Positions 25,514 through 28,386 of a DNA stretch of 58,469 nucleotides are shown here, one piece after another. This DNA comes from Rhizobium sp. Q54 (GTDB lineage Bacteria > Pseudomonadota > Alphaproteobacteria > UBA2966 > CAIVPW01), in the NCBI GenBank assembly GCA_945889645.1, contig CAMDCA010000008.1, positions 1 through 58,469 on the forward strand, read 5' to 3'. Made by a program: the position numbers and the translations under genes. The notes beneath the pieces are model-generated. The model was not told the DNA's origin. It was given only the letters and a program-made list of their open reading frames with translations, and ran no database searches. Position 1 is the first letter of the stretch. Each line of letters opens with the position of its first letter.

Positions 25514-25783
25514 ATGAGCAAGACAATCCTGGCCAACGCGATTCGTGAAGCCACCGGGTGCACCATCGCGCAGGCGAAGGACGCCGTTGATGGCGTCACC
25601 ACCGCCGTACAGAAGAACCTGAAGAAGGATGGCAAGTTTGCCCTCGTCGGCTTCGGCACGTTCCATGTCAGCAAGCGCGGCAAGCGCCAGGGCCGCAACC
25701 CGCAGACGGGCGCGGCTTTGACCATCAAGGCTTCAAAGTCCGTTCGCTTCAAGGCCTCGCCCGGCCTGAAGAAGAGCATCTAA
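25514..25783 (+). CDS. HU-family DNA-binding protein
   Basis: Histone-like protein that bends and compacts DNA as a dimer. The 89-residue product has the HU/IHF fold throughout: SKTILANAIREATG, then GFGTFHVSKRGKRQGRNP with the DNA-contacting arm, then ASKSVRFKASPGLKK. AAAGGGAG sits at normal distance before the ATG. The arm reads GRNPQTGAAL, where most HU proteins have GRNPxTGExI, so HU rather than IHF is most likely. It stands alone between a gap and a decayed region. Confidence 0.94.
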   Translation: MSKTILANAIREATGCTIAQAKDAVDGVTTAVQKNLKKDGKFALVGFGTFHVSKRGKRQGRNPQTGAALTIKASKSVRFKASPGLKKSI

Positions 25784-26136: not shown

Positions 26137-26325
26137 ATGCAGTTCCAGAAAGGCGACATGGTCGACCTCGCCGTCACCGACCCAGCGACCAACGCCGGAC
26201 GATTCGAGGTCCTCAGCGTCACCGGCGACAAGGTGAAAATCCGCGACCGCCAATCCAAAAAGACCGGCGTCGCCGCCCCTGCCGACCTGCGTCTCTACAT
26301 GCGATTCGGCGGCAGCGGGTCCTGA
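26137..26325 (+). CDS. Small protein of unknown function (62 residues)
   Basis: Unrecognised soluble protein with a good GGAGG ribosome binding site. The sequence has the alternating pattern of a small beta-barrel: FQKGDMVDLAV, then RFEVLSVTGDKVKIRD, then KKTGVAAPADLRLYMRF. This recalls SH3-like or KOW-like folds and DUF-type proteins that begin with a xKGDxV motif, but no function follows. It ends 4 bases before the first of two duplicated membrane proteins and is probably co-transcribed with them. Confidence 0.7.
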   Translation: MQFQKGDMVDLAVTDPATNAGRFEVLSVTGDKVKIRDRQSKKTGVAAPADLRLYMRFGGSGS

Positions 26326-26329
26326 TCCC

Positions 26330-27037
26330 ATGATCGCCGCTCTTCTTGTCGCCTGCCTGGTGCTGGCCGGCGCCGCCGTGTTCGGTGCCCGGGTCGTGCC
26401 GGCCGCCGGCTCTCCGGCCGCCCGGATCACTCTGGTCGGACTTGGCGTCGCATTTCTGCTTGCGGCCGGAACGTCCGCCTTCCTGGCGCGCGTGCAGGCA
26501 CCGGCACAACTAGCCGCGACCGCACAGCCGGCCCAAAGCCCGCGCACCCAGCGCGTGATGGTCGTAGGCGACGACACCCCCGCCGGCGCGATCCGGCGGT
26601 CGGACCCGGTATTCGAGGCCGCGCTGGCCGCATTCGAAACCGAGTTCCGCCGCGCCGGCTTCGCGACCGCCGACGGCCGCACCATCTCGACCGTTGACGA
26701 GTCACTCGACGGCGCCCGCCGCCCCGACAGCGAGATCGTCCAACTCGCGCACCGCACCCAGCGCGAGCCGCTCGATGCCGTCGTTCTGTTCTCGCTGTTC
26801 GTCCGGTTGCAGTTCGCCATTGCTGCGCAGACGGCATCGAACCGCGGCACCGCGACCTTGCTGCGCGCATCAGACGCGGGCAACCTAGGCGCCTTCGAAG
26901 CAGTTTCTCCGAGCCAATGGACCCTACCCTACGACTGCGGCCGCCCCTGCTTGGTGCAGACCACCGGTGTCGAGGCGCCCCTTGTCGCCGAAACCATCGC
27001 GGGCCAGCTCGTCACCGCGCTAGACAACGCGCGCTGA
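26330..27037 (+). CDS. Membrane-anchored protein of unknown function, paralogue 1
   Basis: The 235-residue protein has two hydrophobic helices (residues 2-22 and 32-52) forming a hairpin and then a soluble domain. The domain contains VMVVGDDTPAGAIRRSDPVF, EIVQLAHRTQREPLDAVV, LFSLFVRLQF and a C-terminal CGRPC (C203, C207) before LVQTTGVEAPLVAETIAGQL. The paired cysteines suggest an oxidising, periplasmic location. The VVLFSLF beta strand and the alternation of helices and strands recall TolB_N or CsgG-like alpha/beta domains, but only loosely. The next gene is a close paralogue in tandem. I know no characterised family that fits. Confidence 0.75.
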   Translation: MIAALLVACLVLAGAAVFGARVVPAAGSPAARITLVGLGVAFLLAAGTSAFLARVQAPAQLAATAQPAQSPRTQRVMVVGDDTPAGAIRRSDPVFEAALAAFETEFRRAGFATADGRTISTVDESLDGARRPDSEIVQLAHRTQREPLDAVVLFSLFVRLQFAIAAQTASNRGTATLLRASDAGNLGAFEAVSPSQWTLPYDCGRPCLVQTTGVEAPLVAETIAGQLVTALDNAR

Positions 27038-27061
27038 CGCGCCACCTCCGAAGAGATTTCG

Positions 27062-27784
27062 ATGATCGCTACTCTTGTTGTCGGCGGCCTCCTGCTGGCC
27101 GGCGCCGCCACTGCCGGTGCCCGAGTGTTGCGTTCCCCTGCCGCGCGCATCGCGCTGTTCGGGCTCGCCGCCGCATTCCTCCTCGCCGCCGCGACGTCGG
27201 CGTTCCTGGACCGCGTCCTGGCGACGGCCCAACCAGCTGCCGCGATTCAGCCGGACCAGACCGCGCGCATCCCTCGCGTAATGGTCGTCGGCGATGATGG
27301 CCCCGAGGGATCGATCCGGCGATCGGACCCGGCCTTCGAGGCCGCACTCGCAGCATTCGAGGACGAGCTGCGCCGCAGCGGCTTCGCGGTCTCCGACGGC
27401 CGCGCGATCTCGACGATCAACGAGGCGCTCGACCGGGTGCGCCGCCCCGACACCGAAATCGTCCAGCTGGCCCGCCGCCAGCAGCGTGAACCGCTCGACG
27501 CCATCGTGGTGCTCTCGCTGTTCGTGCGCCTGGAGTTCGGGCAGGGCGGGCCAACCTTGGCGGGCCGCAGCAACACGACACTGTCAGGCCGCGGCGTCGC
27601 TACCCTGCTCCGGGCTGCGGACTCCGCCAACATCGGTGTCTTCGAGGCGATTTCTCCGACCCGCTGGCCCGTCGGGTTCGAATGTGCGCGGACCTGCCAG
27701 GTGCAGACGACCGGCGCCGAGGCGCCCCTGGTCGCCGAAGCCATTGCGGGCCAAGTCGTCACTGCCATGAGGAACGCGCGCTGA
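27062..27784 (+). CDS. Membrane-anchored protein of unknown function, paralogue 2
   Basis: The 240-residue tandem paralogue of the preceding gene is similar along its whole length. Shared landmarks are the MIA.L start with two helices (2-22, 28-49), RVMVVGDDGPEGSIRRSDP, EIVQLARRQQREPLDAIVV, LSLFVRLEF and the cysteine pair C208/C212 in ECARTCQVQTTGAEAPLVAE. Differences concentrate around residues 160-177, where this copy has an insertion of about ten residues. It lies 24 bases after paralogue 1. Retention of both frames and of the cysteines argues for function. Confidence 0.75.
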   Translation: MIATLVVGGLLLAGAATAGARVLRSPAARIALFGLAAAFLLAAATSAFLDRVLATAQPAAAIQPDQTARIPRVMVVGDDGPEGSIRRSDPAFEAALAAFEDELRRSGFAVSDGRAISTINEALDRVRRPDTEIVQLARRQQREPLDAIVVLSLFVRLEFGQGGPTLAGRSNTTLSGRGVATLLRAADSANIGVFEAISPTRWPVGFECARTCQVQTTGAEAPLVAEAIAGQVVTAMRNAR

Positions 27785-27791
27785 CGGGCGT

Positions 27792-28107
27792 CTATCGCAG
27801 CGCCGGCCACACCTGCGGCCACACCTGAGGGCAATGCTCGCCGCCCAACGGGTCGCCGGCCTTGAGGCCGGGGTCCACCGTGCGCATGGCGTGGTCGTGC
27901 ACCGTGTAGCGCGCGTCGTCGCCGGCGTAGCGCCGCGCCGCGCGTGCGGTCCGGCGTGCGGTTGCCGCCCGACGAATGCAACGTGTTGGCGTGCTGCACC
28001 GTGCAGTCTCCGGGCGCCAGGTCGAAGGTGGCGACCGGAAACGCGTCCGGCCGCGCGTCGATATCCGGCACCGGCTCGGCAAACTCCTCGGTCTCCACCG
28101 CCTTGAC
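27792..28107 (-). pseudogene. Frameshifted phytanoyl-CoA dioxygenase C-terminal remnant
   Basis: Two overlapping minus-strand frames together spell the end of a phytanoyl-CoA dioxygenase (PhyH) family enzyme. The upstream part contains VATFDLAPGDCTVQHANTLH and SSGGNRTPDRTR, which include an iron-ligand histidine and the 2-oxoglutarate arginine region. The downstream part, one frame over, contains RRYAGDDARYTVHDHAMR and DPGLKAGDPLGGEHCPQVWP. The shift falls in the GC run near 27925-27945. The N-terminal two thirds of the gene is missing and is replaced by an IS3 orfA fragment in the same frame, separated only by its TGA at 28117-28119. Confidence 0.7.
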
Positions 28108-28116
28108 CGGGCTGGA

Positions 28117-28386
28117 TCATCGCTTTGCGCTCCTGCCGGGGAGCAGACGCAGCCCGCGTTCCAAAAAATCCCGTTCCACCGGCAGCTCGCCGATCTTGGC
28201 TTGCAACTCCCTGACCTGAGCTGCATCCGCATCCGGCTCCGAACGCCGGCCACGCCGGAAGATATCCGCCGCTCCTTCGAGCAACGCCTTCTTCCATTGG
28301 TGGATCATCGTCGGGTGGACATCAAAACGGCTCGCCAGCTCGGCAACCGTCTGCTCGCCCTTCAGGGCCTCCAGCGCAACCCGCGC
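28117..28386 (-). mobile_element. IS3-family orfA remnant
   Basis: The frame reads [20 protein letters not shown] and then [20 protein letters not shown], the helix-turn-helix of IS3-group OrfA proteins, and ends with [18 protein letters not shown] before TGA. The first dozen or so residues of OrfA are missing: similarity stops at about 28386, close to the era stop codon. There is no orfB with a DDE domain. It is a decayed insertion sequence, and its loss probably accompanied truncation of the adjacent dioxygenase gene. Confidence 0.75.

Follow-up and report, generated by a model that had tools for sequence, protein, structure and literature searches.

The window, meaning the whole stretch of 58,469 nucleotides that was analysed, contains three plus-strand open reading frames encoding proteins of 62, 235 and 240 amino acids, here designated S, A and B (Table 1). 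As an earlier sequence-only reading of this DNA had described, they are separated by gaps of 4 and 24 bases. The same reading placed them between regions of decay on both sides, which is only half right because the HU gene on the left flank is intact; on the right, the remnant of a phytanoyl-CoA dioxygenase gene and a piece resembling IS3 OrfA were found, the latter by eye only. A mobile or phage origin of A and B was rejected, as no phage match was found for the feature and PHROGs gave none for A, B or S.

Table 1. Genes, protein features and flanking elements of the A/B locus (positions in the window).
Feature	Position	Strand	Description
S, 62 aa	26137-26325	+	ORF; small conserved gene, 4 bases 5' of A
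A, 235 aa	26330-27037	+	ORF; two hydrophobic N-terminal segments, then a predicted CsgG/PelC/LptE-like fold domain; RRPDSE, CGRPC
B, 240 aa	27062-27784	+	ORF; architecture as in A; RRPDTE, CARTC; orthologue of a single gene in G002 C131, G003 C37 and G004 C5
Two hydrophobic segments of A	26333..26494	+	Model helices 2-22 and 29-55; pLDDT 50-60
C-x-R-x-C motif of A	26936..26950	+	Cys203-Cys207; invariant in alignments A1 and A2
Phytanoyl-CoA dioxygenase C-terminal remnant, right flank	27784..28098	-	Pfam PhyH E=2.2e-4, profile positions 171-211 of 213
HU gene, left flank	25514-25783		Intact; ~350 bases off; Pfam E=1.1e-26
IS3 OrfA-like remnant, right flank	28117-28308		By eye only; Pfam did not confirm

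Family membership and paralogy of A and B

Neither A nor B has a match in Pfam, NCBIfam, PADLOC or PHROGs. Single-sequence searches were empty for Pfam, NCBIfam, the PDB by sequence and, with A alone, the genome contigs, and a profile search of PDB sequences gave no match. Weak matches to LysE-type exporters and ATPase subunit C were confined to the hydrophobic segments, and these identities were discarded; an anti-phage defence system was rejected, PADLOC giving no match. Profile A1, made from nine proteins of the window's genus, reached order-level relatives, one of which led to nine loci in public genomes, including that of Pelagimonas varians; another family member is carried by a Methylobacterium aquaticum plasmid. 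Of the genomes sampled, profile A2 matched at least 18 of 385 in the class and at least 11 of 398 in the phylum, both counts being lower bounds since no more than six candidates were scored per genome (both draws include the window's genome, G000). The earlier statement that no family fits thus holds for curated families, but the two proteins are not orphans, as the profile finds relatives across Pseudomonadota.

The A2 alignment has 12 invariant columns, among them both cysteines and residues from the RRxDxE region, and CxxxC is present in 29 of the 32 family members. A and B share both the profile and the invariant residues, by which they can be assigned to an unnamed family, sporadic in Pseudomonadota and marked by RRxDxE and CxxxC. 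Neither this family nor the gene cluster with OmpA, DUF4384 and caspase domains discussed below was found described in those parts of the literature that the search covered.

Alignment of A with B gives 65% identity over 216 residues (E=6e-81), which bears out their tandem paralogy, and the motifs VMVVGDD, EIVQLA..REPLDA and the C-terminal CxxxC were each found in both. The protein tree places A as sister to B together with its three orthologues (support 100/99), and therefore A and B are an old duplicate pair whose duplication predates the split of the genomes carrying the B orthologues. In the other four genus genomes, an A orthologue was not found; A has been lost there, or was not sampled. 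A third, distant paralogue lies on contig 55 of the window's genome (30% identity, E=2.9e-20), and contig 1 of G004 has a further tandem pair of its own, which branches outside the A/B clade. The contig-55 paralogue (L014:4073-5405) is fast-diverging and overlaps the start of a 217-aa secreted-looking protein, whose family was not recognised.

Predicted fold and membrane topology

The AlphaFold2 model of A has a pLDDT of ~90 for most of residues 71-230 and of 50-60 for the hairpin. A Foldseek search with this model returned 71 PDB chains at E<=0.001, and the best 50 of the 71 were nearly all GNA1162, LptE, FlgT, CsgG, PelC, HpaA, DUF330 and CT253. The model of a full-length relative showed the same fold class, with 54 PDB chains at E<=0.001. 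The domain of A and B is accordingly best described as predicted to fall into the class of CsgG, PelC, LptE, FlgT and GNA1162; the TM-scores of both searches are modest (~0.3-0.4 when scaled to the length of the query and up to 0.57 for that of the target), which owes something to the hairpin or second domain present in the query, so that this is an assignment to a fold class and no proof of homology. Profile comparison by hhalign yielded a probability of 0.2% with E=0.37 against CsgG (PF03783; shuffled control 0.1%) and of 0.2% with E=0.35 against PqiC / ABC_trans_aux (PF03886), but the method is weak for this fold class, since CsgG against PqiC itself reached only 1.0%. Pfam matches to CsgG or PqiC were absent from A and B at E<=10, the Pfam CsgG profile had no match in the relatives at E<=1, and the CsgG family had none in the window's genome.

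Hydropathy analysis revealed two N-terminal hydrophobic segments in A, B, the B orthologues, a protein of G002 (C219) and the contig-55 paralogue, and one segment in the other four genus members. The two-helix N-terminus proposed earlier for both proteins is thus upheld at the level of hydrophobic segments, the helices of A being modelled at low confidence. The single-helix paralogues begin with MR followed by hydrophobic residues, and the two-helix forms have arginine in the loop; in A, Arg21 and Arg32 flank the connecting loop, and the positive-inside rule suggests a loop-in, domain-out topology. The loop arginines, the N-terminal MR of the single-helix forms and the secreted-looking relatives together point to a domain located in the periplasm, in agreement with the envelope location suggested before. 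On reading, A and B have no lipobox cysteine. It is likely that they are inner-membrane proteins with a periplasm-facing head, in which the C-x-R-x-C pair probably forms a structural disulfide.

It is very unlikely that the domain is instead cytoplasmic, a signalling or regulatory module held by an N-in/C-in hairpin. The two-helix topology is not settled by sequence alone and the hairpin model is of low confidence, which leaves some room for such an arrangement, but the signal-peptide-like N-termini and envelope neighbours of the relatives, the arginines of the loop and the conserved cysteine pair all argue against it.

Gene neighbourhood, linkage and selective constraint

The relatives outside the genus are mostly ~300 aa long, have signal-peptide-like N-termini and mostly possess a second C-terminal domain; some are lipoprotein-like (L041:9096-9683, L091:13305-14291). 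One relative, at L047:5974-6878, occupies two frames that overlap, perhaps through a frameshift in the MAG concerned. Many of the 25 non-genus loci scanned, with neighbour domains named by Pfam, hold an OmpA-type, DUF4384, caspase (C14), trypsin, SLT or small TolR-like gene, while eight (L093, L096-L099, L103, L104, L107) have none of these within the scanned stretch; as the seeds came from some of the same loci, this count describes a pattern and is no blind test. A cleaner test is provided by G010, G011, G173 and G293, in each of which the sole DUF4384 match lies ~2-3 kb from a gene of the family. A recurrent cluster was observed in other Pseudomonadota (L040, L041, L043-L047, L089, L090, L094), where the family gene is accompanied by OmpA, DUF4384/CsgG-like, caspase, trypsin-like or SLT genes in varying combinations. 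G011, an alphaproteobacterial MAG, has 19 caspase-domain matches, several of them clustered on contig 4.

It is tentatively suggested that the wider family might be the core of an undescribed envelope system comprising an OmpA-type peptidoglycan anchor, a CsgG-like DUF4384 protein, caspase-like and trypsin-like proteases and a transglycosylase; in the window's genus, the short domain would then have been separated from this system, duplicated and given a new role as a paired module anchored in the inner membrane. The roles of bacterial caspase homologues are poorly known, and if the cluster acts as one system, it would provide a periplasmic setting for them.

Relatives of A and B are present in all five genus genomes (G000-G004) and were not found in three other genomes of the same taxonomic family that were searched. 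None of the OmpA-type, DUF4384, caspase, trypsin, SLT or TolR-like neighbours was detected around the eight other genus loci scanned, and by reading, no OmpA, DUF4384 or caspase gene is present among the ORFs around A and B in the window; DUF4384 is absent from all five genus genomes, and a caspase domain occurs in one of the five (G001). As the partners of the relatives are missing in the window's genus, the role of A and B may differ from theirs.

The ratio of non-synonymous to synonymous substitution (omega) was 0.32 between A and B (95% 0.22-0.46), 0.29-0.30 between B and its orthologues, 0.28-0.39 for A or B against the orthologues and 0.20 for S against its G004 homologue. Three-taxon arithmetic on NG86 distances assigns a branch omega of ~0.35 to A and 0.23 to B. 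All three genes are under purifying selection, and the selection on both copies that the sequence-only reading had supposed was confirmed by this check. It seems improbable that A and B survive as relics of an envelope system that has degenerated, still open but drifting in function after the loss of OmpA, DUF4384 and caspase partners. Such a history would be in keeping with the absence of DUF4384 from all five genus genomes and of a caspase domain from four of them, with an architecture shorter than that of the relatives, with the remnants on the right flank and with the greater distance of A than of B from the orthologues (dN to G003 0.273 vs 0.134). Against it stand omega values that lie at 0.22-0.40 in every comparison, none with an upper 95% bound above 0.55, and the retention of the cysteine pair in every aligned genus member and of open frames at long divergence, as had been noted for the two copies themselves.

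The conserved three-gene unit proposed earlier was refuted. The B orthologues of G002, G003 and G004 are solitary, with neighbours unlike those in the window, and the S homologue of G004 (77% identity) lies on a separate contig behind an ABC-F gene, away from the A/B relatives; on this linkage, S was rejected as a third subunit. Nucleotide similarity of A to its relatives begins ~3 bases 5' of the ATG of A, which gives no sign of S in the ancestral unit. The window has a PQQ dehydrogenase gene near S, and in G004 a homologue of this gene lies ~1.5 kb from S; thus S seems to track that neighbourhood and not A/B; it adjoins the A/B feature but is no conserved part of it. S belongs to a small conserved family with no library match (window 26137-26325; L037:5798-5989; L038:2547-2741), which lies near PQQ dehydrogenase in two genomes and, besides the G004 homologue, includes a relative of 33% identity on contig 37 of the window's own genome.

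The B orthologues of G003 and G004 are each followed by a cytochrome/thioredoxin-like gene group. A tyrosine-recombinase-like gene, recognised by eye (L015:2-898), lies beside the orthologue in G003, and a tRNA-Glu gene (L016:6456-6531) is 68 bases before that in G004. These two sites are possibly prone to insertion or integration, with no bearing on the window.

The paired envelope function put forward earlier stands as regards the envelope location and the selection on both copies, but the pairing is not conserved, given the lack of an A orthologue in the other genus genomes and the solitary B orthologues. Constraint on both A and B does not in itself show that they work jointly. An obligate A-B heteromer, for example an alternating ring, with S as a third component, would agree with the tandem arrangement and its short gaps, with the constraint on both copies and with the recurrence of tandem or nearby family copies elsewhere (G004 C1, L041/L090, L091, L092). 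PelC, whose fold belongs to this class, is reported to assemble into a twelve-membered ring (PMC12141448), and this is also in line with a heteromer. The solitary B orthologues and the unlinked S of G004 make the heteromer a rather doubtful proposal nevertheless, and the repeated duplication may also reflect simple divergence.

Proposed role and comparison with known systems

The reading preferred here, with a probability of roughly 55%, is that A and B are old paralogues of an uncharacterised periplasmic envelope family, anchored in the inner membrane and acting as non-enzymatic scaffold or adaptor subunits. Compared with the relatives, the genus members lack the C-terminal domain and the cleavable signal peptide, and they would be held in the inner membrane by a hairpin of two N-terminal helices or, in some paralogues, by one helix. 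The domain, presumably stabilised by the disulfide, would be displayed in the periplasm, where A and B would most likely bind another envelope component, by analogy with solved members of the fold. The adaptor role is the best guess because the characterised proteins of this fold serve envelope machines as scaffolds or channels.

What looked like an orphan pair can thereby be defined as a family, by its predicted fold, its invariant residues and, among the relatives, a neighbourhood that recurs. None of the sources searched describes the family, but its kind, an envelope adaptor of familiar fold, is already known, and A and B taken alone make a modest case, being such an adaptor with an unusual form of membrane anchoring.

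CsgG is the curli secretion pore. A and B resemble it in predicted fold (Foldseek E ~5e-5 and 8e-5 for the two models) and in their likely periplasmic location, but differ in having no significant sequence or profile similarity to PF03783 and no lipobox cysteine. PelC, LptE and GNA1162 are outer-membrane lipoproteins; like A and B, they are short single-domain proteins of this Foldseek fold class, and they aid an envelope machine, as is proposed for A and B, which have instead of a lipobox the N-terminal hairpin and the C-x-R-x-C pair. FlgT, a flagellar H-ring protein, is longer and multi-domain; it was matched by Foldseek with E=3.6e-5 by the model of A and 2.3e-5 by that of the full-length relative, and no flagellar genes were recognised next to A and B. 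A further comparison is with the secreted relatives from Pelagimonas varians, Methylobacterium aquaticum and marine Rhodospirillaceae, which by profile are true homologues (E down to ~1e-80) and have RRxDxE and CxxxC in common with A and B. Those proteins are ~300 aa long, carry the second C-terminal domain, are apparently secreted and are often encoded in OmpA-DUF4384-caspase clusters, whereas A and B are short, appear to be membrane-anchored and lie outside such clusters.
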